Below are positions 2,511-63,484 of a stretch of DNA of 64,000 nucleotides, piece by piece; position 1 is the first letter of the stretch; each line of letters starts with the position of its first letter. The position numbers were made by a program, and so were the translations under genes. Below the pieces are notes generated by a model that worked only from the letters and a program-made list of their open reading frames with translations, was not told the DNA's origin and made no database searches. Origin of the DNA: Hericium rajendrae. Taxonomy: Eukaryota > Basidiomycota > Agaricomycetes > Russulales > Hericiaceae. The stretch covers positions 1,240,001 through 1,304,000 of the forward strand of contig CM065889.1 of the NCBI GenBank assembly GCA_033439255.1, read 5' to 3'.

Positions 2511-2939
2511 GTGTTTTAATTTATAATAAATGTGTTTAATGCTTGACAAGTAAAACTTATGTGTATTGACATCTGAGAAATTAAAATTTTATATAGTCTA
2601 GTGTTCATTTATATGTCCTATCATAATGCTATTAGATCTGTCATCATCTATGTAGCTATCTTTCTCAACTATATAAGGCTATGAGGCCTATCATAGCTTA
2701 TATAGCAGTAGTTAGACACTATATAGTGCTATATATTTCTAAGGGGCAGCTATAGCTGCTATATAAATTCACTGGCTTGCTATGGTCCCTATGGTCCTTA
2801 TGATCCCTACAGTAAGTGAGATATGAATACTATTATTACTACCTTAGAAGTCAATTAAGTACAAAAAAAATCAATTATATTTAATGTGGCTAGTAGTACA
2901 ATCAATTACACTACTAATATGAACAACACATGCAACACA

Positions 2940-4020
2940 GACAAGCGCGCTCAAGTGCACCAGGCGCGGCGGGTGTGCGGAGCACAGGAGTTGTGTGTGC
3001 AGCACAGCAGGCCTATCCGCGAGGTGCTGGGCCTGTGCGTGAGGCACTGGCCTATCCGCGAGGTGCTAGGTCTGTGCGTGAGGCACGAGAAGCGCCGGGG
3101 CTGTGCGCACTGGCGTCGGGCTGTGGCGGGCTCATATGCGAGACGTGGGGTATGCGCGAGGCGCAGCGGGGCACGACGGTGGGTGTGCTCAAGTCGCCGG
3201 GGTGTGGTAGGCCTGTGCGTAAAGCGCAGCAGGCATGGGTGACACGTCGGGGTTCGGTGGCCATGCACAAGGCACGCCGGATGTTGCACAGGGCGTGAGG
3301 CTCCTGCTGGCTCATGCACGAGATATTGCGGGCACGGTGGCATTGTCCGCGAGGTGCAGCGGGTGTCCGCAGGATATGGTGGGTGTCTGCGGGATACGAC
3401 AGGCATCGCGGGCCCGGGGGATGCCGTGGGAGGTGTGAGCGAGGCGTGGAGGATGTGAGCGAGACGTGGGGGATGTGAGCAAGGCGCAGAGGATGTGAGT
3501 GAGGCACGGGGGGCATGAGTGAGGCACGAGGGGCATGAGTGGGGCACGGGGGGCATAGGCGAGAGTGTAGAGGATGTGAGCGAGGCGTGGGAGCGTGGAC
3601 AAGGCATGGGGAGCATGCACGGGGTGCTGGACTGCTGCGGGCCCATACGTGAGGTACGGCGGGCATCCTCTGGGTGCTGGCTCGTATGCGGGGTGTGGCA
3701 GGTGCAGCGGAGCATGGTGGGCATGTGCGAGGCATCAGGCTCATGCGTTACGCAGAGGCCTGCGTAGAGGCTCCGGGGCCTGCATGCGAGCATGCCTTGC
3801 ATGGCCACGCATGACGTGCATGCGTGCATGTGCTGGCTGATGTGCCCGTGCATGACCATGGCCATCCGCCAGCCGTGTGTGTACTGGCACGCCTGGCCCG
3901 TGTGCAAAGGGGCGTGCATTGTCCGGTGATTTGTGGAGGCGATGTTGGGAGACGAGGAGTCGATGAGGGAGGGGTGGCAGCGAGGAATGGCAGTGAGGGA
4001 GGCCTGCAAGGGCAAAAGGT
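2940..4020. repeat. GC-rich minisatellite of X1
   Basis: Degenerate 18-22-bp units such as GTGCGTGAGGCACTGG and GTGAGCGAGGCGTGG. Long open frames on both strands (up to 354 codons) result from high GC and the repeats, not from conserved coding. The corresponding parts of X2, X3 and X4 have different unit sequences but the same style. Confidence 0.8.
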
Positions 4021-4023
4021 GGC

Positions 4024-4053
4024 GAGAGTATCGCTCAAATGAGCGATACTCTC
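4024..4053. repeat. X1 hairpin next to the mini-intron
   Basis: Perfect 13-bp arms GAGAGTATCGCTC (4024-4036) and GAGCGATACTCTC (4041-4053) with an AAAT loop. Related hairpins occur at the same place in X2 (13917-13949) and X3 (61650-61680). Confidence 0.85.
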
Positions 4054-4096
4054 TGAGTTAGTACAAAAAAAACATATAGAGGTTTTTTTTACTCAC
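4053..4096 (-). other. Conserved 44-nt intron-like segment on the minus strand (X1)
   Basis: On the minus strand this reads donor GTGAGTAAAAAAAA, a T-run, the branch point TACTAAC and the acceptor CTCAG, running straight into the hairpin. Equivalents are 13949-13994 in X2, about 61675-61722 and 62147-62192 in X3. The donor, A-run and TACTAAY are kept while neighbouring sequence drifts, which points to a spliced minus-strand transcript. Confidence 0.6.
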
Positions 4097-4139
4097 CTGC
4101 AGGGCCCTTGGCATCCCGCTACCCTCTTTCGGTGTTCGG

Positions 4140-4560
4140 TTTGATGGGAGAGGACAGACAGAAGGGAGGAGGAGAGGGAGAGGTAAGTAGTGGTGGTCGA
4201 AGCTCGAGTTGAACATTCGAACTTCGATACGCATTCAGCCACCGAACGCATGTGAGTTCGAATGTCTTGAGCTTAGCAAATAAAATAAAATAGCCACAAA
4301 TCCAAGAAAAAGACGTTGTGTACAATTTACCAATATAATTTGATTGCATGAGCTAACTACCTAGCTACTATACTACAGGCTACCAGGCAGCAACACGAAC
4401 TTAATGATGTCTGCCACCTTAGTCTCTGATGCAGCATTCCGGCAGCACCCGGGCCAAGTCACGTCACTCACATTTGGCGCTCGCTATGTCTATATAAGGC
4501 GTGCACGACGCGCTTGCTCTCTCTCTTCCCTACCACCACCATCTCTCGTCTCTCGTTACT
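4140..4560. promoter_or_regulatory. Putative divergent promoter of X1
   Basis: On the plus strand TATATAAGG lies at 4491-4499, followed about 20-60 bases later by a CT-rich tract typical of fungal start sites. On the minus strand a CT-rich tract (4145-4190) precedes the mini-intron. The distance from mini-intron donor to TATA box is 395 bp here, 411 in X2 and 404 in X3. Confidence 0.55.
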
Positions 4561-4644
4561 CTCTTCCCTTTTGCTTTAATCTTCTTATGTTTGATATGTT
4601 GTATTCTTGTTTTATTGTATCTAACCTTATGTTTTTTTCTATAG

Positions 4645-4836
4645 CCTTTGCATTTTTGCATTTTTATTTTCTTTGGTATGTTGTTATTTTGTTTGATTGT
4701 TTTTAACCCTAATGTTCTTCATAGACTTCATTTTCGCTTTTATTTCCTTAGGTAAGCCTTATGTTTTTATTTTATTTTGTGATACTGATTTGTTGACTTC
4801 TTTTGTAGATCATTTTCGCTTTTTCTTATCTTGACA
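4645..4836 (+). other. Series of T-rich microexons in X1
   Basis: Candidate exons 4645-4675, 4725-4751 (27 nt) and 4809-4836 (28 nt), each bounded by a TAG acceptor and a GTATGT or GTAAG donor. The last two share the core ATTTTCGCTTTT. X3 repeats this at 62761-62790 and 62851-62878. They contain no useful reading frame, so a non-coding spliced RNA is the simplest reading. Confidence 0.45.
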
Positions 4837-5458
4837 GTAAGTTTTATCTTTATCTTATCTTTTATCTTATCTTGTCTTTATCTTACAGTCTTACCATATC
4901 TTATAGTGTATCATATTGAATATCTGAGATGTCTTATAATTAGCATCTTTTGAGTAACATTGTTGGTAAAGATGATATAGAGTCAATAATAGTCTAACTA
5001 GCTGCATATAATATGATACTAAGGATATACCATATAGCTAATATAGCTATAATAATCATCATATGTTATGACAGTTATAATAGTTATCATCTTATAACAG
5101 ATAACTATGATGACTATGATAGTTACTACCTTACCCCATGATAGCTATGATAGCCCTGTATAGATTGTCTTACTGCTATAGAGTGCTATGATAGCTCTAT
5201 ATAGATTGTCTTGCTGCTATAGAGTGCTATGTAGAAAAGGAGACTGCTATGGCCCTATCAGAGCTATATAGGCTACATAGTGCTATATACCACTGTTAAA
5301 TTTCTCAGATGGATATATTACATGTAGAATCAACTTTTACACTCAAAAACATTGAATTAAATGTTTAAAAAAGTCAATTTTGTATGTCCAAAAAATGAGT
5401 TTTCTTTGTACTAAACTTTCAACCAATGATGCTATGACTCTGATAATAGTGTTATATA

Positions 5459-5607: not shown

Positions 5608-5609
5608 TA

Positions 5610-6019
5610 CATCAGGAACCTTGACAATTTTCTGATTGATCTGTAGTGTCTAACAGTGTCTGACAGTATCTGATAGAGCTCATAGAGTCTGATCTGTCTG
5701 CAGCCACTTTTCAAATGATCACATCTGATTTAGCTTATACATTTAAGAGTGGACACCTATTGTTCACTATAGGAGTTATCCATCTCTAATTATATATCAT
5801 AATAGAATTTCTAATATTTGCTATTTTCACAAATCTGAGAGCATTCTGAGCAATCTCTACAGTGTCTGCATGTCCATTTAGCTGATAGTGTCTGATAGAG
5901 TCTGATGCTGTCTGATTTAACTAACAGCTATCTGATACTGTCTGATGCATCTGATTTGACTTGCACGAGTACTGTCAGACACTGTCAGACCCATCAGAAA
6001 ATTGTCAAGGTTCCTGATG
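5610..6019. mobile_element. Plavaka-derived MITE (410 bp)
   Basis: The ends are identical inverted repeats of at least 27 bp starting CATCAGGAACCTTGAC, flanked by TA (5608-5609 and 6020-6021). The interior is full of TCTGATA-type motifs. The ends match those of the 14.6-kb Plavaka element at 15845-30457, so this is a deletion derivative or relative that it could mobilise. Confidence 0.85.
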
Positions 6020-10630: not shown

Positions 10631-10639
10631 ACTTTGTTT

Positions 10640-12364: not shown

Positions 12365-15265
12365 CATCTGAGAAATTTAAATTTGACATAGCTGCAGGTT
12401 ACATTATAGGTGCTATCATTGAGCTATCAGAGCTATGAAGTTTGCTTATCCAGCTATGTAGAGCTATGAGAGCTATCATAGCCTACATAGCAGACAGTGT
12501 GACATTCATAGGGTTATCATAGCCTCCATAGCTTGTAGTCTGATATACATAGGGCTATCATGATTAACAAGGTGTGCTATGGCTACTATGATGCCTATGA
12601 TTACTACCACAAGTCAGATAAGCACCAGATATTACAAGTCAGAATTTATCATAATAAATTGTAATAAATCTACTACCATACATATATAAGCTAGTCGAGC
12701 TACTGCATAGGGCACAGGATGCGGAGGGCATGCAAGTCACTGTGGAGGGTGCAGGCACAGGTGCAAAGACAGCGCAGGCACACAAAAGACAGCATGTGCA
12801 TACAAAAGGTGGTGCGGCATGCACGAATGCCAGCACAGAGAGCACAGAGGTAGGCGTGGGCCGCACACAGCATACATGGTCCATGCACGGCAAGCTGGAC
12901 CATGTGTAGCTGCATGCGGGTGGCCATGCCCACAAATGGGGTCAGGGCTGCCGTGCATGCATGCAGGTTGTGTACATGCATGTGGGATGTTGCGCATGTA
13001 CGCAGAGCATCTGGAGGGTGCGGGGTGTTGAGCGGGCACGCGGGAGCATGCGCGCATGCAGGGCGTTGTAGGCAAGTGGCATTGAGTGTGAATGCTGGGT
13101 GTCGTGCATGCATTGTTGTGGGATGGGGTCTTGCAGTGCCGCCATGCACTGGCATCTGTGCACATGTGGAGGTGGAGCTGGACACGTGCGGGGGATGTCG
13201 GGCACGTGCAGGTGTCGAGCATGTGCAGGAGGCCTGAAGCAGGCCTGCAGAACATTCTGCATGCACGAAGAGGCACTGTATGGCACGTCACGCATGTGTG
13301 ATTGTTGTGCACCTGTGCAGATTGATGTGCACACACGCAGGGCATGTTGAGTTGAGCAGGTGCAGGAGCATACATGCAACCGGGCATGGCATGCATGTCC
13401 GAGGCATTGTGAGCAGGTGCAGGGTGTTGTGAGTGGGTGTGGGGGCTTGAGTGCATGGACAGGACATTGCAAGCGTGCACGGTGTTGAACATGAGCATGA
13501 GGCCTTGCAGGGATTGAGGCGAGCATGTGGGGTCGTGGCCGATAGGCATGAATGACGTCCGAGTCCCATTGCCATGGCAACGGGACTATGGTGCATGCAC
13601 ATGCACGAATGTGGGGCATGGGCGATGACGTGGCCTGTGTGCACATGTTGTTGACGTCGTGCAGATGACGTCACATGGTACACACATGCACGCATGCTGT
13701 AGCCTTGTGCATGCTGGTGCACGTGGAAGGAGATGGTGGTCGGAGGCATGCGCAGGGGTCGCAGCCTGTTGGAGTCAGGCATGGGGTGTACGAGCTGTGT
13801 GCAGGGCGTGGATGTGGCGTAGACAGGCCAAGGAAGGGGCGATGAGAGTGCAAAAAAGGCAGCAGGATCGTAGGATGGTAGCGCGAGGATGTGGGATCAA
13901 CAGAATAAAAGATATCGAGAGTGTCGCTTGAAAAATGATTGACACTCTCTTGATTAGTACGAAAAAATGATAAGAGGCTTTTTTTTTTACTCACCTAAGG
14001 CCCTCTAAGTATCTGCTAAAAAAACCATCCCAGCCGTATTGAAAACCAATAGAGAATGAAAGAAATGGAAGGAAGGAGGCTGGAGGAGGAAACACGAAGG
14101 AGGGGAAGGGAGACTGGTAAAAAGGAGTGAAGTCTCGACATGTTAAACTCGGTGCTTCAGCCACTGAATGAGCAAAGCTTTGTTGCTCGAGCCTCAGCAA
14201 ATCAAATAAACTTGTATAAATTCAACGAAAAAAGGGACAGTGATAGATTATACATTTAATTAGAATGTATGAGAACACTGTGTATCTACTGAACTGTGAA
14301 TCTGTGAGCAGCAGCATCAACGTAGTAAAGTCTGGCATCCAGTCTCTGCCACAACACTCGGCAAGCACCCAGCAACCACAAATTCCGATTCCATCTGGGA
14401 TTCCTATATAAGGCTGGCACGATGCACTTTACCTCTTGCTCTTTAACCCCCACCATCCCTTGCCACGTCAACACATTTGTTGTCATCATTTGCTCACTTG
14501 TCATCGTTTGCTCACTCATCATCATCATTTGCTCACTCGTCGTTGTCGTTTGCTCATTTTATTAATCATTGTTCTCTTCGTTGTTAAAGGTACGCTGTTA
14601 TTCTTAATTATCTTATAACTTATACTAATGTCTTCATACTTATTACACTACCATGTAGTCCTACTAGATAAGCTTGATTGTTTCTTATACTGATGTCTTC
14701 AAATTGTCTTGTAGATTTTCACTTTTTTGTTAATCTGGTAAGTCTTCATATATTATCTTTGTTATCTTCTAATACTCATGTCTTTTTTTATTTGTATCTT
14801 TTGCTTTTTGTAGTCATTGTAAGTTTGTTACCTTTTATAGTTCTGTAGTAGTCTCTGTAGCTATAGTAATGTTTTGTAATGAAATTGTTTGAGTAATATA
14901 ATTTATCCAATTTTCGATGTTTGTGACTGTAAGACATCAGACTATTGAATCTATAATATATTTATTTTATATGCTATTTTAGCATATTTGATAGAAGTAA
15001 TATAGAGTAGATAGAAATCTTACTAGCTAGATATAATATAATGATAGAGATATATTATATAGTTAATATAGCTTCTATAGTTATCTTATACTAGAATAAC
15101 TATGACAGCTATGATAGCTTATGCCCTATGCTATGACAGCTATGACAAGCTATGATAGCTTTGCATTGTTTACTTGACTGCTATGTATAAAAGAGGACAG
15201 CTATGGACCTAGAAAAGCTATGTAGCTAATATAGTGTTATATACCAGTAACATATTTCTCAGATG
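12365..15265 (+). mobile_element. X-family TIR element, copy X2 (2.9 kb)
   Basis: Ends CATCTGAGAAAT and its complement. The flanking TT (12363-12364 and 15266-15267) is a true 2-bp target duplication, because the target sequence is known from the neighbouring repeat units. It holds the GC-rich minisatellite (12690-13880, rich in GCATGC), hairpin 13917-13949, minus-strand mini-intron 13949-13994, TATATAAGG at 14405-14413, microexon 14715-14737 and AT-rich subterminal repeats. No transposase. Confidence 0.8.
14340..14480 (+). promoter_or_regulatory. Putative promoter of X2
   Basis: TATATAAGG at 14405-14413, followed by pyrimidine-rich sequence. Aligned in position and spacing with 4491 in X1 and 62596 in X3. 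Confidence 0.5.
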
Positions 15266-15844: not shown

Positions 15845-15864
15845 CATCAGGAACCTTCAAAACT

Positions 15865-16560
15865 TTCTGATTTACCCTGCAGGCATCTGACTGTATCTGA
15901 CTGTATCTGCATGATCTGCAGCAGTTGCATCAGACACATCAGATACTCTCAGCTAGCATCAGCTACTCTCAGCTAGCTGCAGAATATTTAACCTAAAAAA
16001 AGTTACAGTAAGACTCAGATTTGATCATCTGCAGTCAGAAATGCTTTCTGATCACAGATTCAACATCTGATCTCAGATGATGCAGAAATTTTGTTATTAG
16101 CAGATATATAAGATTTTTATCAGAATTGTCATATTTTATCAGAATTTATCAGAATTGTCTCAGCATTTGTTCAGATTTGACTTTCAAAATCAGAGTCAAA
16201 GCAGATGCAAAAAGAAAAGGTTAAAAGTTCAGAAATTTTTATTCAAATTAGACTAATCAGCAAAGTTCACTTAGCTCAGATATTATCAGCAAAGTTTACT
16301 CAGCTCAGATACTATCAGCACAGTTCATTCAGATCAGATTAATCAGCAAAGTTTCATTTATATCAGACTAATCAGCAAAGTTCACTCAACTCAGATACTA
16401 TCAGCAAAGTTCATTCAGATCAGATTAATTAGCAAAGTTTACTCAGAAAAGAGTAATCAAGTAAGTAATTTAAGATCAGACTCATCAGAAAAGATTACTC
16501 AGATCAGCTCTTAGATTCAGACCAAGATCAGAAATGACTGCAGCTCTAGATTTTGCAGAT
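15865..16560. repeat. Left subterminal repeats of Plavaka
   Basis: Many copies of ATCAGCAAAGTTCA and CAGATACTATCAGC-type units, mixed with TCTGACTG motifs. Likely transposase binding sites, by analogy with CACTA subterminal repeats. 16560-16710 shows nothing else. Confidence 0.7.
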
Positions 16561-17847
16561 TAGAAGATGGTAAAATAAGTCAACTAAATGCCCATAGGGC
16601 TCAAAGTCCTGAAAGACAAGCATAGCAAGAAAAAGCATATAAGAGTGGTGAAAAGTGTGTAAAAGTCAAGAGTGAAGTGCCAAAAATGATAAAGTATAAC
16701 TTGCAGTAACCTACTCGCTCAAATTTCCCTGCAATGCAAGACGACGCTCAGAAGCAACCGATTGACGAGTTGGACCCGAAGATTGGCGATACTTAGGATT
16801 AAGATAGGGGGTCGCACTGGCAATAATCTTCTCCCACTTGACATCTGAGACTTGCCTAGTGCTGGCCACCCACTCTTGCGTGGTGGTGATCCACAACCCA
16901 GAATTGAACTGGCCACCTGCCTTGGCCCGATCGTCGAGTGAATCTCCACTGGTAAACTTGACAAGCCGCAAATATGCGCGCTCAACCTATCATGTGATCA
17001 GAGTTGAGCAGATATTTTTGAGACAACAAATACATACCGCACTCGTGGTCAGAGCTAGTGCTCCAATTGCTGGGGCAGACTGCCGAATCTCTGCCGGGAC
17101 TTGCTTAACATAGGTGAGATGAGCTTGAGCGAAGACCCTCAAAATTGCCTCAGCAAGAAAAGAGCCAGAGTATACCTGTACGAAAATAAGCCAACATTGC
17201 CTAATAAATCAGAAAAACTTACTGCTCCATCTACACCTTCCTGCTTCTCTGCATGGCTATAGATGAAGGGCACTCGGAGGTCCTCAGGACTGTTCTCCAT
17301 GCCTAACATCCAGCGCCCGAGCAAATCTTCATCTTCCACACCCTCGAGCTCTGAATGGAAAGCGATAGCACGTTGCGCATAAGACCCGAACTTGCTGCGC
17401 CAGTCATATGATCTCTGTTTCAGCTATAGGAATGTGAGCATTAAGAATTACAACAAGAAAAAGCATAAGAATTACGCACCAAACCAAGTACTACACCATT
17501 TTCCTCAACAACGTGAGGAATGTCCGGATAGACTGCATTCCACAGGCCCTGAGCTTCTGGGATGAAATCGGAGATGTTTGCCCAGGGCTGGTCGAGGGTT
17601 CCTAAGAAATCCTGCCACCTCGGGACATACTCCTTGCTGAACCGATCCTGAGTGCCCGGAGGCAGATCGCGAGTACTGAACTTGATGGCCATAGGATTTT
17701 TGCTGGCCAGACGTGGCTCATTCGGAACTTGCTCTTGATCACTGTTGTTGTCTTCGATATCAGCATCATCAGCTGCGAAATGTACCTGATAGTAGATAGC
17801 ATCTGTTAGCATTCGAGCAAATAACTAGATTAAGAAATAAAACTTAC

Positions 17848-17880
17848 CGCACGAGAGCTCGAAACGTTCGTATCATAAGT
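17848..17880 (-). other. 33-nt microexon, copy 1
   Basis: Minus-strand exon coding TYDTNVSSSRA, between a CTATGAG-type acceptor region and a GTAAGT donor. Two further copies: one split by the P-like element (17942-17949 plus 23281-23305) and one at 23365-23397. Exon and intron together form a tandem unit of about 93 bp. Confidence 0.75.
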
Positions 17881-17949
17881 CTATGAGAGTTAGCAATTGT
17901 TAGCATTCGAGCAAATAACTAGATTAAGAAATAAAACTTACAGCGCGAG

Positions 17950-20900
17950 CAAGAGGCCCCAGGGATTTTATTTCCCGACACGAGGCCCTGTTATCCAGGA
18001 TGTCCGAAATCCGTGACCACCCCCCTCCCTGTGTATTTTTTTTTTCTCAAACCTGCCGATTTTCCTTAGGGACCACCCCCCCTCCCCCTATATTTCATAG
18101 AATTCGAGAAATACATGAATTATCTAGGAAATTGTACCGCGTGCTCCTAAAGCGACACCTTCGCCTTTTTCGAACCACTCGGCCCCGCTGTACCACTCGA
18201 GTCAGCCTCGCAGCCAGATGGTCGTGCTCGCTTTGTGTTCACTTGCTTTGCACATGCCCGACTCTTTCCTTTTGACCCTTGGGTAAGTCCTAGATTGGTT
18301 AGTTCCTGTGGGGTAATTTGGCACCTCTCGAGGGCATGCGTGATCTCGTGTTCACTCGCATGTGGATGCTTATCCTTGATGTGAAGCTCTAAGTTGTAAG
18401 TCCATATGATCTGGCTTGAATCGAAGCCGTTACCGGGCTGGGGAATACAAAGAGGGCATTGAATAGGACGGTTTGTGCTGGGCCCACTCTTCGTGGTCTT
18501 CCCAGCGGCTTTCATCGAGAATTTGTAATAGCGTGGACAGTCGAGCGCTACGGGCACGAGAGTCTTTCGACTCGTCTTCAGTGTCACGGTACATGTCCCA
18601 AGACGACTGCAGAAGCCGCAATACTGTGCGTCTTTGCTAAGCTGTAAAGACGTGCTTGTAAATACGGTTAGTTATAACGACAGATTAAAACTCACAGATG
18701 CCTTCGCTTTTCCATCCTCAAACCCGAAGCGCACTGCCAAAAGGTGGGCTGCAACGTGGTCCCGCATCTTGCTGAGCTGAACAAGATCATCGCAAACGAA
18801 ACACTCCACCTCACCCTGGCTCGGTAGTCGCTCGATCACCTGCGCCGCCTCGTTGTTGACGAACGCGAACGACCCTAAAGACCCTAGGTAAGCATGCACT
18901 GCTAAGGTTCGTAGCGATGTTAACTTACCATCATGCCGTCTATATGGGAAACCTGTAGATACCGGTCGCGTTGGGATTGCATTCGCGTGAGGTGCGATAT
19001 CCAACCAGAGGCATTCCGTGAGAGCATCCAGCACTGACGTCTCGAAGTCAGGTGTTATGGGAGTCGACTCCGTCAAAGGCGGATTGACCGGACGAGTAAG
19101 GAATGCTGGCACATCAACAAGAAGAACCTTTTTTGACAGCTTCGTCCCAGGCTGAGGTACGAGGTTCTTCCCTGCGACTTTTTTTGACGTTGTGCCCTCA
19201 AATGCCTCCCACATACCGGTCCAGTGCCAATGTCCATTGCCATGAGGTTTGAGGGACAAGACTTGTCCTCGGAAATTGATCTTCGGGTTGGTGAGTTCAG
19301 CTAATGGGATTGCGGTAACAGTTCTGTCACCGTCCTTAATTATCGCCGTTATTCTTAGTATTGCCAAGGCCGCCTTATCGTCACAGCGCAGGAACGTCGC
19401 AACCATCTGTCCGATCATGAAGAGATCACCGGCAACATCATCGTTGTTGACCGAACCCTTAATGCCACCCCGCGTATACCCTCGAACACGGAGCAATCGC
19501 TCTGTCGACTTCAGCCCTTCATCGGCACCTAGAAGAAGACGGACAGCCGATGCTTTGTGAACCTGGCTGCCATCAATATCGAGCCACATCCCATCCTTGG
19601 CAAAGACCGTATCTGGGTCTTCTCCGATCTCTTCAGGTATGAAGTCCTCGAGCATCACCGTGTCGATTTCTGAGTCTGATTTTGGTTTGGCAGCTGTCAC
19701 GGTTGGCGTGTCTGTGTCCGATTCATCACCCATCTGTACGTCCAAGTCTGCTGTGGTCGTATTCGCATTGCTGTCTTCTGAATCCACCCGCAGTCCGACG
19801 TAGTGTCCTTCAGGACGGAGCATGTCGATCACAGGGTTGTCCGCCCCAATATCAAACTTGTATGTCTCTGCAGCACCCACTACACCGGCTTTGGATAAGA
19901 TGCTGACAGCTTCGCTGCGACCAGCATTCCATGTGGTAAGGAGGCTGACATTGCCGACAATCACGTCTCCCGTCCATGATGCGGGATTTGTATGGTCGAC
20001 TCCCTCTGACCCCTCCAGGCGCAAACGCCTATGGCCGCGATCCAACTCTGGATTGTCCGCAAAGATACGGCTCAGATCAGCAGATGCACCAGCACGGTCT
20101 GCCAGCTGCTGAATATCGACGTTTTGCTGATGTGTCATTGTTCGATAGTTTCCGAATTCTGATTCCAGCCTGTCGGAGCCTCTCTGACCAATGTAAAGCC
20201 CGACTTCAGGCGCAAGGATCTTCTGCTTCGCTACATCCCAGTACATGTTCTTGATAAGGGATTGTATATCGTAGTAAAGTTGACCAGGGCAGAACGAGCC
20301 TCCATTAGTACGCCATAGCTTGAACAGCAGATGCGCGCAAGTAGATAGCGATGTAAGTTGCTCCGATAATGACATTGATGGACTGATATACGGCTGGACA
20401 AGACTGCCAAGTAGTCTTCCGAGGACATACAGCGCAGGATGATTTGAATCCATTGAATCTAAAGTACTCAGTTGAGCAAGCGACATGAGTAGACGGACAG
20501 CCTTTGAAACATTTTGATGATCGCGCAAATCAAAGAGCGCCGATATCGTGTTCGCATCCATCTTTAGATCTCTAGAAAACACAGACCGAAGCAACGCAGG
20601 TTGTACATGAGTATTCATGATTAGAAATCCATCTGGCGCGCGAAGATGGCCTGCAAAGTCTGACAAGTATGGTGTTTATATCAGCGCTTCTCGATTACAT
20701 GTGAGAAAATGAACTTACTCTTAACTTTGTGCTTCAGATCCTTATCAGCGAGAATGTCCCTCTCTCCGCATTCGAGATTCATCAGACGCAGCGGCGCAAG
20801 GTATCTATGGATTGGTGACGATGCACCGAGTGTTCGAGACATCAAGATGAAGTGGAGAGCTGCTCGGTATGTCGCATCTCCATCTGTCGCAACATTCCAA

Positions 20901-23272
20901 ATGTCACCGTACTGAATTGCAAAGCTACCCTCCGGCTTTGTCTCGTACCAAGCATCGATCAAGGCCATGAACATAGTACGTTGCTCAATCGCCGTCTCCT
21001 GCTTACACGTCCCTGACACCAGCACAGGAGCCAACGAGTAGTTTGTGCTCGCAAAGGGCGCTACTGCAGCAACAGTCGCCTCCTTCGCACGGTGAATATC
21101 GCCAGTCTCGAGTGCCCCCTGGATGACGCGCAGCGTGTCAATGGACGTGACTTCAAGATCACAGCAAGCCGAATGTTCTCGGCACATGCCCACCACAGTG
21201 TTTCGCCCAGCATCATAGCGAGGCCGCTCATCCAATGCGATGTTATCGACCATCACAGACCATCCGCGCTTGGGTGAAAGGGTCCCAGTTTCGCTTCGCC
21301 AAAAGAAGCCGGCCTTTGCAAGGACGTCCATGTTCTGCCCGATCTCGAGTACTGTAGGCTTCGCCAACGATGGGAGAATCTTGGGAGATGGTGCGTGTTC
21401 GTATACTGAATTAATGTTCGGGAGATCTAATGACTTGTGTATCGCATAGAGCAGCTTCGGTCCACCCAGTGTAAGAACCATTTTCGCCACCTCAAAGTTC
21501 CTCTTCTACGAATCAAAGGTGAGCCAAGTATACCTCCCACGATGCGCAATAACTTACATTGAAGCTTTTCACATGATAAAGGGACTTGCTGGCACGTTCG
21601 ATCCGCGACAATATCTCTTTCGGACCACGATTACTCCTCAACGCTACGGCAACCAGACGAGCGACAGATGGAAGGTCGCTCATTGCGATCGCTGTAACGA
21701 TTCGCTTGTGATCGCTGATGCGAGTTGACAGCGTGGCGATCTTCCGGTCCATGTTTAAAGCCTACGAAACTCATGTGAGTAATGGCCTACATCTGTCCCT
21801 TGCGTTGAGACTCACCTTGAGCTTCATTTCATTCTGTTGCTCTACCTTCCTCGCTAATAGCTGACAGAGCTGATCGAAGGTATAGAAACGGTAGTTTGTT
21901 GACTTCGGGACTGTCTGCGCTGCACGTTCACGAAGCTCTTGCAGTTCTGCCCCATCATGCAGATTACTGCAGATAGTGCAAGCCTCTCGCGGCGCCCTGG
22001 GAACGTGAGTACAGTTCTTGCTGCGGATACGGAATGTTGATCCATTCTGACCAATACTGACAAAGATATAGGACAGATTCTTGAACTGGTGTAAGTGCCA
22101 CGGGTACTTCGTCCATATGCTTCCTGACCAGACTAACACTACTCCTGGGCAGGGATTATCATCGAAAACTGCGAGATCAGCACGCGAAGCCTTTGGGCTG
22201 TCATCAGGTGTCGTCAGATCAACCAGTTCGGCACCCAGTAACAACGACCGAGGACTATCGGGAGCGGGCGATAGGGACGCATGTGGCGTGATCTTCGCTG
22301 TCAACGAGCGTGCGGTTCTGAGCGCATGGTCATTGGACTGTGCTGCGAACATGTCCGTGAGCTTGAGTTGCTTCTTGTCTGCAAGCTCATGCTTCTTCGC
22401 ATCTTCAGCCTGTTTTGCGAGCTTCTTGCACGCGCGCCCGCCAACGTGTGCAATGACAGCATGCATGGATGTTCCCTCGCCAAGATCAATCACTTTTCCG
22501 CAGGTAGGGCAAGCTTTGCAGCGAATGGAGACCGTTTTATTAGCGCCGCGTTGACGAATCTGCCAGAAGACACCGTCCGCGTCTGCATCTTGTTCTCCAA
22601 GGAGGACAAGGCCTGACTCGGAGTCCTGCGAGCTCGGCCCATCTGCATCCACATCATTTGCTGGATAGACTGAACTGTGAGTGTATTCGTCAACGTCAAT
22701 GTCAGATGTGCTCATCGCATCAGCGCCAGGTATGCTCATCGCATCGTCATCGCTCGCGCTCGACGATCCTTGCTCGTCTCCTTCATAATGCCCCCATTCG
22801 GCATATTCGTCCCAGTCGTGGGCTTGACTGAATGTGTCGTACACGTTGTCCGACTGTTCGGTATCCAAGAAGCCATTGTTCGGCATTGCGTGGGCTGGCT
22901 AGGTGTAGTCGTTCGTACACGGTGTTGGCAACGACGATGACTTAGGTACTCAGTATTGTCTCGAAATGGGACATCTCGGCTATGGGGGCAGTGAAGTACT
23001 AGTGACGGCTTACACTCCAGCGCGCATGCCCAGAACAACAATAAACGTGCAAATGAACCTCAATCCAGACTGACTTCACCGAATTTCGGCCACAAAATTT
23101 TCGTCATATTTTCCCCAGATTGAGCACAATTACATGAAAATTCAGCCCCAAGCCATAGTTACACTTTTTTGTTTAGTTGTGTACAAAATATGAAATCTGG
23201 CCATCGGGGGGGGACCACCCCCCCCACCCCCCCGGGCCTCGTGTTTGTAAAATATTAATTTGGGGCCTCTTG
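17950..23272 (-). mobile_element. P-element-like DNA transposon, 5.3 kb, apparently complete
   Basis: Inverted ends: both start CAAGAGGCCCCA and carry ACACGAGGCCC about 28 bases in, with C-rich GACCACCCCCC tracts just inside. The 8-bp direct repeat AGCGCGAG at 17942-17949 and 23273-23280 is perfect. It encodes one five-exon transposase with no stop or frameshift. 8-bp duplications fit P, hAT and KDZ elements; the transposase motifs favour a P-like type. Confidence 0.9.
18147..22886 (-). CDS. P-element-like (DDE) transposase, about 1,506 residues
   Basis: Exons 22886-21816, 21761-21558, 21505-20719, 20659-18696 and 18641-18147 total 4,521 nt, exactly 1,507 codons, all in phase. A further 45-nt in-frame intron near 18885-18930 is possible. 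Domains: acidic N-terminus; a zinc-finger-like cluster (CPTCGKV with H and C about 30 residues later) near residue 145; a catalytic core with LDERPRY near 517, VATDGDATYRAALHF near 631, DLKHKVK near 681 and GSDRLESEFGNYRT near 848; and a C-terminal zinc finger (YCGFC, CPLC, HIKDKHPH). The D, D and E spacing and the D-x-LE-x-x-FG-x-x-R motif resemble P/THAP9-like transposases; exact superfamily needs a profile search. It is the only intact large transposase in the window. Confidence 0.8.
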
Positions 23273-23280
23273 AGCGCGAG

Positions 23281-23488
23281 AGCTCGAAACGTTCGTATCA
23301 TAAGTCTATAGAGTTAACAATTATTAGCACTCGAGCAATAGACGGATTAAGAGATAAAACTTACCGCGCGAGAGCTCGAAACGTTCGTATCATAAGTCTA
23401 CGAGAGTTAGCAATTATTAGCACTCGAGCAAGTAGATGGATTAAGAGATACTTACCATGCGAGAGCTTGAATTATCCATGCTATGACT
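23281..23488 (-). other. Further tandem microexons of the accessory gene
   Basis: The remaining 25 nt of the split microexon (23281-23305), an intact 33-nt copy (23365-23397), and a related longer exon starting at 23456 (minus-strand reading SHSMDNSSSRM at its end). Introns between them are near-identical to each other. Confidence 0.7.
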
Positions 23489-25393: not shown

Positions 25394-25626
25394 TGTTGTT
25401 GTTACTTCCAGTGCCTTCTTCCCTGCTCGACTTCAAGTTTCTTGTTCCGCTGCGTCCGGAGCCCTTCTTCTCGACGCCATCTGTCGAGACAATCAACGGT
25501 GAGTAACTGTAGGCTCGAGATATGAACACGACTAACCATTATTGATACTTGCAGTGTTCTCGCCTGCCTTGCTGGTACTCCTTGTGTTCGTAGCCCCCTT
25601 TCGCACCATCTTCTGTTCGACAACAT
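25394..25626 (-). other. Second pair of duplicated in-phase exons
   Basis: Exons 25626-25537 (90 nt, DVVEQKMVRKGATNTRST then SKAGENTASINN) and 25480-25394 (87 nt, DGVEKKGSGRSGTRNLKSS then REEGTGSNNN) share phase, start and end motifs, and similar introns. Exon duplication is therefore a general habit of this gene. Confidence 0.65.
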
Positions 25627-26151
25627 CTGTCGAGCAAGTAAAGGTAAGTTGTTAGAGTCAAAAAGTGCGAAGTATTGACTTCACTAACCGTTGTTGGCCT
25701 TTGCAGCCCTTCCCTTCCCCTTCCTCGAGCTTCCCGCTTCCGTCGCCTCGGATTCGTGAACTTGACTACGCTGTTGCGCGCGCGTGGTCTCGATAACAAC
25801 TTGAACCCGCGGCACTTTGGTTTGAACACGCCGTGGGGGTCTGGCTGCTTCCTGAGCAGATTGAGCATCGGCGGCGAGCATAGTCTGCTCGAAACGGCCA
25901 ATCCGTTCAGCTGCCTCAGCCGTGTGCTGTTGAGCGGCGAGTTCTGCTTCTTGTCGAGCCTGGCGCTGGGCCTGCGTGTTGCGTGCAGGTGCCTTCCTCT
26001 TGGGTGCTGTCGAGCCACGTCGCTTCGCGCTCGTGTTTGACACGGGAGGGGGATCCGGTTTCGATCTCTTTGGCTTCTTCTTGGGTGGTGGAGGAGGTAG
26101 ATCCTCATCAGAGGTAGGTGGGTCATTAGCTCAAGACCGTGTGCGCCTCAT

Positions 26152-26571
26152 GCTGACTGGAGAGTGTGTTGTTGGTAGGTGTCGAAGTCACGTCACGTCT
26201 TAGCGAGTCGTGCTGTGGTCAGAGTCGCGCCGTGCCCAGAGTCGCACCGTGCCCAGAACTAAACTGATTTGGCTTCGGCTTGTTGCGGCAACGGCACAAC
26301 TTGAAGTCCCTTCAAGCTCACTTCTCCCTCTGGTTGCTTTGCGGGCTTGTTCATTGCTATTTGACACTGCTGGCCTATCTTTGAACAATTTTGCCTGTTG
26401 ATTGACTTTGACTGTGTGCTATTGATATAATTGCTTTGTGATTGACTCGGTGATTGGACTTGTTAATTGTGATTGAATCTGCGGGTGGGCTTGCCTTCGA
26501 ACAATATTGCAGCCTGATTGACTTTGCGAGTTCAGCTCTGAACATCTAGGCTTATTGACTATTGAACTATT
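26152..26571. promoter_or_regulatory. Shared divergent promoter of the Plavaka genes
   Basis: The 420 bp between the ATG of the accessory gene (minus, 26151) and that of the transposase (plus, 26572). It contains a GTGCCCAGAGTCGCACC-type short repeat and the alternating TTGATTGACTTTG segments near the transposase start. No TATA box is obvious. Confidence 0.5.
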
Positions 26572-48560: not shown

Positions 48561-51027
48561 ATGGGCAAGAAGAAGCGCGCTGCCACAGCTGCTTGGAGAG
48601 CAGCAGCAGCAGCACCACTCCCCTGGCACATCATCACAAGCCCCGCGACCCAGCTCGTCGCCACCATCGCACCCGCCGACCAGTCAGGCACAGTCGCCGA
48701 GAACGAGCCATCGCCGGCGCTTACACAGCAGCCAACCGACTCGCACGCGCGATCTGCGTGTCCCGCACCTCCTACCTCGTTTATCGCGCCGCATACGACC
48801 AGCGGGAGCTTGGATCCCACATCCGTACCGCCCAGCAATAGCACGGCGTCATTCGCGACCAACTGCGAGCCCGTCGGACGGCCAACGCCCACCACAGCCG
48901 AGCCGCACGATCCGTGCAGCCCACATACGCAGTCCGCACCCTCTACCACCTCGCGCACATCGAGCGTGCTTATCGCGACCTCATATGAGTCGTATCCGCC
49001 GACCCGCCGTGCTACACGTCCCCAAACAGTTGAGAATGGGTCGCAGGAAGGTTGTGGACTTGCCGAGGACAATACGAGCACCGTGAGTGATGCGTACAAC
49101 GGACGGACGCACCTGGTACGCACCCATGCCTCTCCCGCATCGCATATGCCTCCGGAGACACCATACAATGCACCCACATCGCACCACAGCACCAGCCGCA
49201 CACGCATTGCTGCGAATGCGCCAGCAGATCACTGTGAAGATCACACACGCGACACGCACATCGCCATCGCGCGCACCACAACCCGTCTCGCCCTACACTC
49301 GCATAATGCACATGCACACGACGTGCCTCGACCGGCAGATACCACCGCCATACCGCACAGCCGCGGCCCAGCACCATTCGAGACCAAACACGAGCCAGAC
49401 CGACCGCACGCAGACACCACTCGCGAAGAACGCGAAGAACGCAGCCCCAGCGAGCAGCCCGTACCTCGCGCCGCCCTTACTGTACCACACAAGTGTCTCG
49501 TGAGCCTACAGGACATCCCAGCGGATCCCAGCAGCACCGCACGCCCACACGCCGCAGACAACGTGTCCAGGGGCCTCCCTGGAGCCTGCGAAGTCGGCGA
49601 ACACACCACGCACACACGCGCCATACCCCACGAGCAGCACGCTCCCCTAGCCGTATCTCGCGACGTCCGCGCATCCCTGCACAACGACTCGAAATTGCCG
49701 ATGCCCGGACTCGAACCAGGAGTGCACCGTGCGGCCGCCGAGGCCGAACCACGCGAGGCATCCGCGTCCCCGTGTAGCACGACACCCCACACCCCGTCTA
49801 CATCTACGCCAACGTTGTCATTTCCCGCCGACGCCGAATCCGCAGTATTCGACCCCTTGCACCTCGACGAGATCGCGGCAACCGCGATCAGAAAAGGATT
49901 CGACGCGGGCTTGAAGGTGGGGCGAAGTGACGGGTTTCGCGAAGGAGTAGAGCAGGGTGCGAAGATGGGCCGAAGGCAGGGCCGCGAGGAGGGTTTGCAA
50001 GAGGAACGAGCAGCATGGTTGGGCGAGGGCCGCGAGCGGCACGAACTCGAAATATGCCAGAACACCTGCATCACGTCCGCCGTCCAAATGGATGACGTAT
50101 GCTCGACATTCCACACCCTCGACGCACCCCGGTACTGAGCTACATCGATCGAGCAGATCAACCCAGATCTCCTCACGCGCATACGCAAGAAGGCATTGGA
50201 TGAAGGCTGGGAGGAAGGGTGCGATGCGGGAACGATAGTCGGACGAGCAAGCGGGTATTGGGAGGGCTATGAAGCCGCAAAGCGTGAGGCGAGCACCACG
50301 GACAGTGTCCCCAACGGCGTCCCTGCAGTCGACATGGCCTTGCCCCCCACGATGTCCTCGATATACCGTACCGCCTCCACGTTCGGCGTTCCACATGCTG
50401 CATCGCCCAAACAACTGCCTGCCCCCAGATTCGAACCGAGGCAGCCCCTCGCCGCTCCCGCGGACGAACCGCACAAAGCGCATGGCGCAAACGTGATTAC
50501 TGCATCACCACCGACCACCACTGCACGTAACTGCCCCCGTTCACGTTCAGAGCTCCACCCAAATTACTTGCATGAGAGGAAGGCGGGGAGAGTAGAAGGT
50601 CGAGATGATGGCTACCGGGAAGGTCTGGAAGCAGGACGAACAGTGGGCACAATAGAGGGTCGGGAGCGCGGATTTGAGGAGGGGAAGTCCGCTGGGATTC
50701 AAATAGAATGTGAGCGTGCTCGCAACGAAGTAAGTCGCCTATCAATCGCATCGGTCGCTGTCCAAACAGACGAGTTCCTCGTACCCAATGGCGTGAAACC
50801 CCTGATCCAAACGGACGAGTTCCTCGCACCGAACTGCATCAAAGCTCCGGTCCGAATGGACAGCCCACATTGTCCCAGCTCTATCAGTCCTGCCGGGCGA
50901 TTCAATTATGGCCCCGACACCACCAGTGGTAGAACACCTATGTGCGACATGGACGAAGCAGCTAAGCGTGCTCACCACCTTCGTACTCAAGCATACATGT
51001 TGCTCTATGGCCCTGTTGTCGATGCGG
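48561..51027 (+). CDS. GX3-repeat protein of the outer LTR element, main part
   Basis: ATG at 48561. Residues 1-440 are Ala/Pro/Thr/His-rich and disordered. Then comes a glycine-every-fourth-residue block: DAGLKVGRSDGFREGVEQG, continuing AKMGRRQGREEG. An in-frame TGA at 50136-50138 is followed without frame change by INPDLLTRIRKKALDEGWEE and a second block (GCDAGTIVGRASGYWEG), then a third (KAGRVEGRDDGYREGLEAG, RTVGTIEGRERGFEEGKSAG). A VQTDEFL motif is repeated near 50760 and 50810. The GX3 pattern recalls the deca-GX3 region of Yae1-like proteins and glycine-zipper helices. It is split by the inner retrotransposon at GTCGATGCGG and continues at 56237. Function unknown; the position suggests a gag-like role. 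Confidence 0.6.
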
Positions 51028-59507: not shown

Positions 59508-59618
59508 CAAAAGGCAAGCAAGCTACTAGGATAGAATGTCCACAATTATGCAAACCAACACAAAAGAAGATAATTCTAAATCAGGCTGCACTGGCAGCTT
59601 CCTTCTCTAGAATGTCTA
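59508..59618. other. Short unassigned spacer
   Basis: About 110 bp between element B and X4; nothing recognisable. Confidence 0.4.
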
Positions 59619-60523
59619 CATCTGAAAAATCTGAAATCTACATAGCTGCCAGCCAATGCTATGTCTGATTTTATAGTGCTATGGCTGCTATGTAGTTAGG
59701 CCACACAGCTATACAGGACTATGGTAGCTATGGTAGCTATCATAGTCATTGGTGACGGGTATATAGTATTACATAGTAATAAGACATTACTATGCCTGCT
59801 ATGTAACTTATGTATTTTTAGTCTCCCTCTATGTATCCTATAGATGCTATGTTCCATACAGAGCTTCAGTCTGCTATAATATCTACAGTTGGTGTAGAGT
59901 CTATGATTTTGATATTACACTCAAAACAGGTCAAACTTGATTATATTAAACTACTACTACAATCAAGTATACTAAGTTACACGCATGCCCGTGAGGTGTG
60001 ACAAGACATGCACACGCCAGGGCACGACTGGTGTGCGCGACACTGCATGCGAGGTGCAATGGTGCATGCGAAGGTACGCAGGAGTGCACGTGCTGTGGCA
60101 CCCATGCACGATAGGGCGGGCCTGCACTATGCAGCAGGCCTGCGCGTGGGAGATGCAGAGTGTGGAGTCCATGTGCCTGGCATGGGGTCTGTGTGTCTGG
60201 TGCGGAGACGTGCGCGAGGTGCAGAGACTGTGCGTGAGGCACGGGGGACCATGTGCAAGGCGCGGGGGATGTGCATGAGGCGTCAGTGGCGGCAGGCCCG
60301 TGCGCGAGGCACTGGGCTGCCGCAGGCCCATGTGCGATGTTGAAACCTGCACGTGAGAGATGCGAGGTGCACCGAGGGCATGCACGAAGCATCGGGGGCA
60401 GCGGGCCTGTGCATGAGGCATGCACAAGGCATTGGGCTGCAGCGGTCCATGCGCGAGGCGCTGGCTTGTCCCGGGCTGGTGGGTGACATGGCAGCCTGCA
60501 CGCAGGAGATGCGAGGTGCACGA

Positions 60524-63484
60524 CATCTGAGAAAATAGAAATTTATATAGCAACAAGTCCTCTTATGAGTCCTATGGGTAAGCTATAGAGGCTATGTGGC
60601 TAACCTATCTAGCTATGGAGGGCTAGGAGGGCTATGATAGTCCCCATAGCATGAAGTCTCAAAGCCATAAGGTGACATAGCCTTTATAGCCAGGAGTGCC
60701 ACATACATAGGACTATCATACTTAGTAAGGGAAGCTACATGCACTATAGCTACTATACCCACTATCATAAATCATGTAGGCACACAAGACATGGAATCAA
60801 AATTATATTATATGCAGAGCTAGACTATGACACAGGGACCACAAAATCGAGCAGACTAGCAAGGACAGGCTCCAAATGGACCTCGCATCCTCATGCACCT
60901 TGTGCTCACCGGTTATTGCATATGCGCGAGTTGCCGCGGTCATATATCGCCGTGCGCAGGGTGAGGCAGTCGTGTGCGGGGTGGAGCGTCGGCACACGAT
61001 CATGGACGGGACGGGGCAGGGTGCGCCGACCGTGCATGGCCGCGCGTGAGCTAGCGTGGCCATGCGCAGACTCTTGTGGGCTGCGTAGTCGTGAGCTTGC
61101 ATACGAGAGCTGGCACAGACATGCCCGTGCCCTAGGTCCTCCCGCGTGCCGTTGTGGGGGCAAGCGCACATCTGCGAGGCCAGGCACGGTCACATACTCG
61201 CATGCAAGAGTTCACGCATGATGCTGAAGGGCGTTCGCGGTGTGCGCGTGCAGCGAAGACCTCCCGCAGGCTTGCGACTGTGCATGGCTGCACATTGGCA
61301 TGGACATGTGTGGTCACGTGCTGGTGAGGCCGTCTGCGGGCATGCATGGCCATGCGCGCTCAGCCATGTGTCGTGGTCGCGAGGTGTCGTCGATGCCGCA
61401 GGTTGGCCATGTGATGTAATGAGCCGCACGGACCGGTTGCAGTCGTGTGGGGGCTGTTGATGGCATGAGGATGCAGGAACCGGGTGAACGGCGTACGATT
61501 GCACCTCGTTGCCACAGCAATGAGGCACGACAATGTGGACACAGATGGCATTGTCGTGGAGGTGGGGCTGTGGTGGGCTCGTGGATGTGGGGGTGTCGTG
61601 TCAAAGGCGATGGGCTGTGGTATGCAGGATTGAGGGGAAGCAAGCACAAGTATCGCTCGTTGAACAAGCGATACTCGCATTGTTAGTACGAGAAGGGAAT
61701 GAAAGAGCCTTTTTTTACTTACCTAATGGTTGGCCGCAAGCGTGTCATCGTCGCAGCGGGGTCAGGCAGACAATGTGCTGGGCCCGCATGAACCTGTTGA
61801 CGTGCGGGCATGCAGAGGTGCGAGGTCGGGCAGAGGACGTCGCGCCCCATTGCCACGGCAACGAGGCATGATGACGCAAACACCAACGCCGTGGTCGGTG
61901 AACAGGAGGTTCGTGGGTGTGGGCGTGGGCATGGAGGGTCGACGCGTGAGCTACCGAGCTTGCGTGCATGCGGCCGGGTCTATGTGCAGCTGTTAGTGAT
62001 GCGCAGGGCATCAAGGCTGCCACTGGCGTGTTCGAGAAGGGTGCGGGGTACTGGCGACATGGCGGAAAGAAGGCGATACGGGAGAGGAGGGCAAGGGCAA
62101 GGGAGAGGTGTGTCGCGGGAGTCGAAGAACAAGAGAGCAATACTCTCTGTATTAGTACGAACAATGTACAAGGATACTTAATTTTTACTTACCTTTCACC
62201 CTCTATGTCCCACCAAGACCTTCCTGTGTTTGATCGGACGAGATAGAGAGAGAGAAGAGGGAGGGATAAGGGACGAGGAGAGAGGAGGGTGGTGGAGTGG
62301 TGGTGGTAAGTTGAACTTTGACACGCCTTCGGTGCTTCAGCTACCGAACGCACGTCAGTTCAGATGTTTTAAGCTTCGTAAATCAAATAAAACACTCTAA
62401 ATTCTGAGAAAAAGACTACGAACAGTGTTCTTTTGATTAATCAAATCGTATGAGATGAGTATCTAGTTAAGCTACTCTAAACTACTAGGCAATGGAGTGC
62501 ACTTAGAGAAATCTGGCACTTAACCTCTGACACGAGCGCTTGGCACCGTCCGGCCCGGTCTCAGCAGCCACATTTGGTGCTCCGCTGGCCACGTCTATAT
62601 AAGGCATGCGCGACGTGCTTTCTCTCTCTCTTCCCTACCACTATCATCTCTCGTCTTTTGTCGCTCTCTATTCTCCTACCTTAACTTTCTGATGTTTGGT
62701 AAGTTATTATGATGTTGCTATATTGTTTCATTGTTCACTAACCCTACTGTTCTTTGTAGACTTCTACATTTTTGCTTTTATTATCTTAAGTAAGTCTTAT
62801 GTTTTTTTATATCTGTTTTTTGTATACTAATTTGTTGACTTTGTCTTAAGATTATTTTCGCTTTTTCTTATCTATGATGTAAGTCTTATCTTATATTTTT
62901 TGATCTTTTATCTTTAATTTCTGTCTTATCTTATGTTCTATTTCTATCTTATCTTATCTTTGAATCTTATCTCATTTTACATTTATGTATGTTGTTATTT
63001 TATTTGAAGTGTTGGTCTTTGTATTATATTATAAATGTATAGTGATGCTTGTAGCTTTTGTACTAAATGTGTTGTAATTTAATATTGTTTGAAATATAAT
63101 GCTTTTAAATTTTTGATGTTTTGAATGACAACAAGTCTGAAATTTATAATATATATAAATATTTGAATACATTTTTAGCACTCTGAAGCAGCATACAAGA
63201 CAGAGGTGTCATAGAGTAGATAGCAGCCTTACTAGCTAGGCATAATATAATAATAGAGATATACCACATAGTTAACATAGCTATGATAGTCATTATACAC
63301 TATAGCAGCTATGATAACTATGATAGCTTATACTCTATACTATGATAGCTATGATAGCTATGATAGCTCTATATAGATTACCTCATTACTATGGAGTAGC
63401 TATGTAGAAAAGAGGACTCCTATGGCCCTATCAGAGCTATATAAGCTACATAGTGCCATATACCAGTGGTCCTTTTCTCAGATG
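60524..63484 (+). mobile_element. X-family TIR element, copy X3 (3.0 kb)
   Basis: Ends CATCTGAGAAAA and its complement; GA at 60522-60523 and 63485-63486 is the 2-bp target duplication. Same internal order as X1 and X2. The hairpin plus mini-intron module is present twice (61650-61722 and 62120-62192), suggesting an internal duplication. TATATAAGG at 62596-62604; microexons 62761-62790 and 62851-62878. Confidence 0.8.
62210..62680. promoter_or_regulatory. Putative divergent promoter of X3
   Basis: CT-rich tract on the minus strand (62240-62300), TATATAAGG on the plus strand at 62596, followed by CTTTCTCTCTCTCTTCCC. The block CAGCTACCGAACGCACGT (62338-62356) is shared with X1 (CAGCCACCGAACGCATG). 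Confidence 0.5.

Follow-up and report, generated by a model that had tools for sequence, protein, structure and literature searches.

The window, a 64,000-nucleotide stretch of the Hericium rajendrae genome, holds three complete copies of an element with terminal inverted repeats (TIRs), here called X, together with part of an older copy that X3 has split and, at the right edge, one end of a relative with different termini, arranged internally like X between the core and the right end (Table 1). The sequence-only reading had described X1, X2 and X3 as sharing their ends and as flanked by target-site duplications (TSDs) GA, TT and GA; exact CATCTGAGAAA pairs bound all three copies, and the same TSDs were obtained on re-reading. 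The window also contains a Plavaka element (15845-30457) whose CATCAGGAACC ends are 25 bp long and whose TSD is 2 bp. Two short Plavaka-type elements (5610-6019 and 63571-63792) have CATC-type ends and 2-bp TSDs. A search of the window against Rfam 15 gave no match at the gathering score. No description of X appeared in search listings of the accessible literature.

Table 1. Coordinates of X copies, their parts and a relative in the window
Feature	Position	Strand	Remarks
X1, complete element	2570..5311	+	exact ends, TSD GA, in 25-copy alignment, shared flanks
X1 core, G-skewed, ~1 kb	2970..3990	.	GC 0.66, skew 0.34, CpG o/e 0.87, low conservation
X1 hairpin, 13-bp stem	4024..4053	-	conserved, with two-sided changes
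X1 TACTAAC branch-point-like site	4057..4063	-
X1 5' splice-site-like AGGTGAGT	4091..4098	-
X1 TATATAA of plus promoter	4491..4497	+
X1 T-rich leader	4500..4920	+	predicted micro-exons with TTTYGCTTT
X2, complete element	12365..15265	+	exact ends, TSD TT, shared flanks
X2 core, CpG-poor	12765..13890	.	GC 0.58, CpG o/e 0.64
X2 donor-like site	13989..13996	-
X2 TATATAA	14405..14411	+
Older X, left part, split by X3	59619..60523	+	end CATCTGAAAAA, one mismatch
X3, complete element, inside older X	60524..63484	+	exact ends, TSD GA
X3 core	60924..62100	.	extra donor/branch-point/hairpin module near 61650-61724
X3 donor-like site	62187..62194	-
X3 TATATAA	62596..62602	+
Class-2 relative, right end (CATCAGGAAAA end)	63849..64000	-	continues beyond window

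Copy number and insertion of X

The sequence-only reading had set beforehand the check that genome copies should share these ends. The exact 11-mer CATCTGAGAAA occurs 547 times in the 46.8-Mb genome, compared with 4 times for the reversed control, and 25 copies could be aligned; right-type ends number 178 (control 0). Within the 64-kb window, 8 matches with at most one mismatch were found against 1.97 expected, a number reached by none of 100 shuffles. Most paired copies that were read (25 of 31) are 2.6-3.2 kb long, and 29 of the 31 are flanked by a 2-bp TSD, or 25 of 27 insertion events once copies with common flanks are merged. For one copy (L016), an exact empty site exists: its flanks are contiguous in a paralogue, 99.5% identical across 8 kb, and overlap by the 2-bp GC. 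Two further candidates, L018 and L044, were rejected as chance end motifs within another repeat.

The flanks of X1 are shared with L014 (on C1) and those of X2 with L006, L009 and L032, which implies in each case one insertion duplicated later, with four copies of the X2 insertion. Such duplicated insertions make CpG-type decay measurable in a fungus.

A fast-evolving core and a conserved inner module

From left to right, X consists of an inverted end, AT-rich GCTAT-type subterminal repeats, a G-skewed core, a hairpin with minus-strand intron signals, a divergent promoter, a T-rich leader with splice donors and again AT-rich repeats before the other inverted end. This order, already proposed from the window, is seen in the 25-copy alignment and also base by base.

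The constant properties of the core are its GC content (0.58-0.73) and positive GC skew (0.19-0.34), found in all 23 copies compared. CpG o/e is more variable, at 1.16-1.36 in 16 copies and 0.64-1.02 in the remaining 7, which include X1-X3. The core had been described as a minisatellite, which is correct only in part: tandem arrays are clear in X1, where units of about 20 bp are repeated up to 4 times and 39-40-bp pairs occur, but in X2 and X3 the repeat finder detects no more than short runs (2-4 copies). Mean pairwise identity of the core in the 25-copy alignment falls to 0.18-0.39 per 50-bp block, and the core turns over fast with no codon periodicity. Substitutions showed no 3-base periodicity in any of 11 pairs (p 0.30-0.99), of which only 5 are fully informative, 3 being post-duplication copies of one insertion and 3 having poorly alignable cores; of 134 indels, 32 have a length divisible by three, which does not exceed chance expectation.

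A protein-coding core was rejected on periodicity, and the earlier claim of a TIR element without a protein stands, inasmuch as X1-X3 contain no recognised protein and the frames of X1 and X2 match no Pfam family. A hidden protein, made if the minus transcript were spliced into the core and yielding a fast-evolving, low-complexity product such as that of the 354-aa X1 frame, is very improbable. The longest minus-strand open stretch is indeed unusual (p<=0.03 in 16 of 25 copies, compared with 6 of 25 for the plus strand; 60 dinucleotide shuffles), but the substitution and indel patterns and the Pfam results speak against such a product, and no conserved ATG was seen in the X alignments.

In the inner module, 50-bp blocks of the promoter region average 0.37-0.72 in pairwise identity, yet the distance from TATATAA to the minus donor stays within 20 bp, at 396-416 bp in all 23 copies measured; the spacings reported previously for X1, X2 and X3 (395, 411 and 404 bp) become 400, 416 and 409 bp here, owing solely to a 5-bp landmark offset. 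In the leader, donors are found 67 times in sense and 6 times in antisense orientation (shuffles 17.0, maximum 27, and 5.4), TTTYGCTTT 41 times in sense and never in antisense (shuffles 1.4, maximum 7), and ACTAAY 26 times in sense (shuffles 5.9). Predicted acceptor-like sites in the leader are not enriched (52 in sense, 47 in shuffles), so that exon ends are uncertain. The donor-to-branch-point spacing is 38-43 nt in 23 modules, within the set range to which the search was limited, and X3 carries two donor/branch-point/hairpin modules. Hairpin pairing reaches 96.1% across 26 sequences, with 17 two-sided cells versus 5.4 in shuffles, while two of the five measures in this test are unremarkable, at 54 and 207 of 500 shuffles.

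These patterns could, in principle, reflect DNA-level sites at which the palindrome and promoter bind a transposase or chromatin factor, the RNA being irrelevant. Palindrome pairing is kept in DNA too, the hairpin test fits DNA and RNA alike, and the acceptor result is in line with such sites, but the strand asymmetry of donors and TTTYGCTTT and the donor-to-branch-point spacing point to RNA, making this explanation rather improbable. Judged from sequence conservation, selection on a putative transcription unit would be the best reading of the promoter and donor/branch-point signals. The earlier proposal of selection for transcription and splicing is partly supported, by these signals and not by the acceptor-like sites of the leader.

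The module in elements with other ends, and the search for a partner

The inner module was located at 161 places genome-wide (reversed control 0), including elements that end in CATCAGGAAAA or CATCAGAWAAAT. Its association with no fewer than three types of ends goes beyond the sequence-only reading. There are 18 CATCAGGAAAA ends and 122 CATCAGAWAAAT ends in the genome (controls 0), and among 100 CATCAGAWAAAT ends listed, 21 adjacent convergent pairs lie 2.6-3.6 kb apart. The CATCAGGAAAA relative L051, read from the right end only, has a CATCA..TGATG-type end; the CATCAGAWAAAT relative L053, read at both ends, has CATCA..TGATG termini and, by eye, the TSD AT.

We compared genome matches to three transposase families (132 exon-level matches for Plavaka, 172 for KDZ and 31 for Transposase_21) with the listed X ends by eye and with 100 listed module sites (C1-C8) by script, KDZ being represented by the matches listed. 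Among these matches, none proved to belong to an autonomous element that combines X ends with a transposase. Within 4 kb of the 100 sites, Plavaka matches occur at none, Transposase_21 at 2 and KDZ at at least 2. The best Plavaka candidate (L050) was rejected as a Plavaka nested within an X fragment, another high-scoring Plavaka (L052) has no clear TIR, and a KDZ element with a 13-bp TIR and 3-bp TSD (L034) was dropped because paralogy extends past the TIR. The largest frames of the longer copies L012, L013, L025, L032 and L039 match no Pfam family; since that of L013 spans 613 aa, X may possibly have a cargo or partner gene.

Non-autonomous elements usually derive from internal deletion, and the module could accordingly be a remnant: promoter, leader introns and hairpin inherited from an ancestor that was autonomous until it lost its gene, and conserved only through young copies or sequence exchange. 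A leader with introns but no gene behind it would resemble a 5' UTR. We nevertheless consider a remnant unlikely, given the contrast between the promoter region and the core that lies between the same ends, the retention of the module across three kinds of ends and the lack of Plavaka matches near the listed module sites.

A putative RNA-making element among known transposons

We interpret X, with a probability of roughly three in four, as a large, PlavakaB-like DNA transposon that is non-autonomous. A Plavaka-group transposase acting in trans would recognise the CATCWGA-type ends and subterminal repeats. The interior would hold a conserved, apparently non-coding transcription unit. Its promoter region, divergent and about 400 bp long, would give rise to a plus leader in which several donors of mini-introns lie and to a minus transcript that has a single mini-intron beside the hairpin and would run into the GC-rich core. 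The core, meanwhile, may decay through CpG-type transitions, a weaker part of the scheme.

Non-autonomous DNA transposons are expected to require their ends only, whereas the X interior combines fixed-spacing promoter and donor signals with no detectable codon constraint in the copies compared. The same promoter and splice-like signals where ends and middles differ suggest that making RNA aids the survival of X. Tentatively, transcription and splicing could be under selection because an element that is open and transcribed would withstand silencing by methylation and remain within reach of the transposase. A broader and more doubtful proposal is a transposon class in which the cargo under selection is an RNA unit that is divergent, spliced and non-coding: ends, core and promoter would be swapped as modules between lineages differing in transposase specificity, and the RNA unit kept because it is needed for spread (anti-silencing or licensing). 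If RNA work confirms the unit, one could test whether DNA parasites in methylated genomes remain open and mobile through their own transcription.

With a 2-bp TSD, X is neither a KDZ element (Kyakuja/Zisupton; 7-8-bp TSD) nor a hAT element (5-8-bp TSD and hAT transposase); a hAT dimerisation domain in L017 is nested, because the insert is flanked by a 7-bp repeat (by eye). MITEs are short, under about 800 bp, with no promoter of their own, whereas X is mostly 2.6-3.2 kb with a conserved putative promoter module. The short Plavaka-type elements of the window likewise have CATC-type ends and 2-bp TSDs, but, at 222-410 bp, could not accommodate the promoter module and the core. LARD-type elements also possess a kilobase-long conserved non-coding interior, but are LTR retroelements with an RNA intermediate, whereas X has TIRs and a 2-bp TSD. 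Non-autonomous CACTA/EnSpm elements, with CA..TG ends, subterminal repeats and no transposase, resemble X in all three respects.

In Kojima 2025 (PMC12730594), fungal EnSpm elements have CAC..GTG ends and a 3-bp TSD, and PlavakaB elements CATCA..TGATG ends and a 2-3-bp TSD. X, with its CATCT ends and 2-bp TSD, was rejected as CACTA/EnSpm and approaches PlavakaB in its CATC-type ends, its TSD length and its relative L053; a Plavaka element with a 2-bp TSD also shares the window. The suggested link to CACTA/Plavaka gains support from the relatives, whose ends are of CATCA..TGATG type and, in the one read at both ends, are flanked by a 2-bp TSD. It gains none from X itself: among the matches compared, no Plavaka gene belonged to an X element, and X1-X3 differ from PlavakaB in their CATCT..AGATG ends. 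X further differs from PlavakaB in carrying, in place of a recognised transposase, a conserved putative non-coding transcription unit and a GC-rich core.

Ends, copies and insertion

The sequence-only reading had taken X, a TIR element family without a recognised protein, to be a repeat bounded by CATCTGAGAAA, and a search of the source genome (46.8 Mb in 19 contigs, the window being C12:1240001-1304000) bore this out: CATCTGAGAAA occurs 547 times versus 4 for the reversed pattern, and the copies could be aligned. Extended end patterns gave 237 left-type matches, which include some right-type ends, and 178 right-type matches genome-wide, with 0 in controls. Paired copies were sought from 100 of the 547 sites, located on C1, C2 and the first part of C3, by taking neighbouring convergent ends, mostly 2.6-10 kb apart. 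A scan of the fetched sequence yielded 28 distinct copies besides the window's X1-X3; 25 of the total of 31 measure 2.6-3.2 kb and six are longer, the choice by spacing favouring short copies.

A 2-bp target duplication (TSD) flanks 29 of the 31, the exceptions being L022, without TSD, and L039, with a 3-bp match. Because X2, L006, L009 and L032 have common flanks, as do, separately, X1 and L014, the copies represent 27 insertion events, 25 of them with TSD. The copy at L016 sits within a large KDZ-bearing repeat, and the C8 paralogue of that locus, 99.5% identical over 8 kb, is an empty site whose two flanks overlap by exactly the 2 bp, which shows insertion of X; this insertion would be recent if the C8 paralogue never carried the element. 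A KDZ-bearing repeat at L034 and L046, of 8 kb or more, has C1 and C8 copies that are 99.5% identical, and a KDZ score of 95.1 bits recurs at 12 places among the matches listed.

Promoter-side module and GC-rich core

The minus-strand order of a AGGTAAGT-like donor, a TACTAAY-like branch point and a hairpin stem is discernible in nearly all alignment rows. Under a stricter script, 28 of 29 copies examined (all except L025) have the donor at the prescribed distance from their TATA box; TATATAA and donor are 396-416 bp apart in 23 of 23 copies, a set that counts both X1 and L014 and leaves out L006 and L009 as X2 duplicates. The stem is 96.1% paired across 26 aligned segments and holds 17 two-sided cells versus 5.4 in shuffles; two-sided changes affect 5 of 14 pairs, a count reached by 54 of 500 shuffles. 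An Rfam search of the window gave no match.

In the 500-bp T-rich leaders following TATATAA, donor-like hexamers number 67 sense and 6 antisense (shuffled means 17.0 and 5.4), TTTYGCTTT occurs 41 times in sense and 0 in antisense (in 21 of the 23 copies, with a mean of 1.4 in shuffles) and ACTAAY 26 times in sense versus 5.9 shuffled; acceptor-like sites show no enrichment (52 versus 47 shuffled). Predicted micro-exons (n = 29) fall 12, 13 and 4 into three length classes, free of a multiple-of-three constraint, so that a coding micro-exon chain in the leader is unlikely.

Insertion with a 2-bp TSD, the number of ends, the anatomy and the conservation, measured as mean pairwise identity per 50-bp block (table), are established for X. 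A divergent promoter would drive its transcription, with splicing on both strands; more tentatively, we propose that this may benefit X by keeping the element open. Rival explanations for the conserved module are that it is a remnant 5' region or a DNA-level binding site. That X instead encodes a fast-evolving protein is unlikely, since 3-base periodicity of core substitutions is absent in 11 of 11 pairs; five of these count most, three others being copies of a single duplicated insertion and another three having cores that differ by 42-52%; 32 of 134 indels in 11 copy pairs have a multiple-of-three length.

The core has a GC content of 0.58-0.73, a positive GC skew throughout (0.19-0.34) and a CpG o/e from 0.64 (X2) up to 1.36 in 23 copies. 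X1 and L014 stem from a single insertion that was later duplicated, their 100-bp flanks being 99% identical; their cores diverge by 15.3% and the remainder by 3.9%, transitions making up 98% of core differences; X2 and its duplicates repeat the pattern. Mutation in these pairs reaches 0.29-0.40 per site at CpG positions versus 0.02-0.10 elsewhere, which is consistent with methylation-type decay; DNA methylase-like exons have 5 matches in the genome (best E 8e-10). Promoter-side modules of L015/L024, L028/L023 and L028/L020 are 83-85% identical, yet their cores are mostly unalignable, and L020 has its best core match in L029 and its best flank match in L028. These mixed matches and unalignable cores indicate that X cores are replaced over time or exchanged between copies.

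Conservation along X (25-copy alignment) and coordinates of other features (window unless a locus is named)
Feature	Position	Identity	Remarks
First 250 bp of X		0.56-0.76	
Core		0.18-0.39	
Hairpin		0.71	
Hairpin to TATA box		0.37-0.72	
Just past TATA box		0.70	
Leader		0.05-0.73	
Last 92 bp of X		0.79-0.80	
Plavaka element	15845-30457 (14.6 kb)		identical 25-bp CATCAGGAACC TIRs, 2-bp TSD
Short Plavaka-type element	5610-6019		CATCAGGAACC ends, TSD TA (by eye)
Short Plavaka-type element	63571-63792		CATCAGGAACC ends, TSD CA (by eye)
Dispersed long frame	L013:1745-3583		within X copy; no Pfam family
Dispersed long frame	L018:1925-4216		weak Yae1_N match
Dispersed long frame	48561-50138		no Pfam family

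Relatives, transposases and classification

Genome-wide, 161 places fit a strict pattern that combines the donor, the branch point and the 5' arm of the stem, versus 0 in the control; at 30 of the 100 listed a CATCTGAGAAA right-type end lies within 2.2 kb, and the others have different or decayed ends. The class-2 relative L051 lies on the minus strand, with its CATCAGGAAAA end at window position 63849, and keeps the X-like order between core and right end; another X masks the left end, leaving the right end alone readable and the TSD illegible. Eighteen sites match the L051 end pattern, and 12 of these are identical across 26 bp. L053, with a third kind of ends (CATCAGATAAAT and CATCAGAAAAAT; TSD AT, by eye), has an X-like inner order; ends of this type match at 122 sites versus 0 in the control, and among the 100 listed, 21 convergent pairs of neighbours span 2.6-3.6 kb. 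In a promoter-region tree with one representative per relative class, L051 being on a long branch, the 28 CATCTGAGAAA copies are not monophyletic with respect to L051 and L053 (AU p 4e-6), and ends and promoter thus seem to differ in history.

Nesting is seen at several loci: at 59619-63792 an older X holds X3 in its core, adjoined by a short Plavaka-type element; L051 is itself split by another X; and the X copy at L017 contains an insert with a hAT dimerisation domain and a flanking 7-bp repeat. X or class-3 ends beside or inside Transposase_21 and Plavaka matches (C2:4510962-4510991, C3:1368993-1372372) suggest insertion into other mobile elements.

Profile searches found at least 132 Plavaka and at least 172 KDZ exon-level transposase matches genome-wide, an abundance that would suit an Agaricomycete; among the matches listed, with C9-C19 compared by eye with right-type ends, none belongs to an X element. 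The 14.6-kb Plavaka element has a transposase frame at 26572-27969, its gene confirmed by Pfam; three further long frames on its minus strand (18672-22886) match no Pfam family. The 613-aa frame of the long X copy L013, which is 58% identical to the L018 frame over 131 aa, may be a partner or cargo gene of X; the L013, L018 and window frames have an MGK(K/N/R)(K/R)-type start in common.

X would be mobilised in trans by a Plavaka-group enzyme. PlavakaB, according to Kojima 2025 (PMC12730594), has CATCA..TGATG termini and a TSD of 2-3 bp. L053 carries this full terminal signature and L051 has it at the single end read, whereas the termini of X1-X3 are one base off; X is therefore best named a PlavakaB-like, non-autonomous family rather than a member of PlavakaB.
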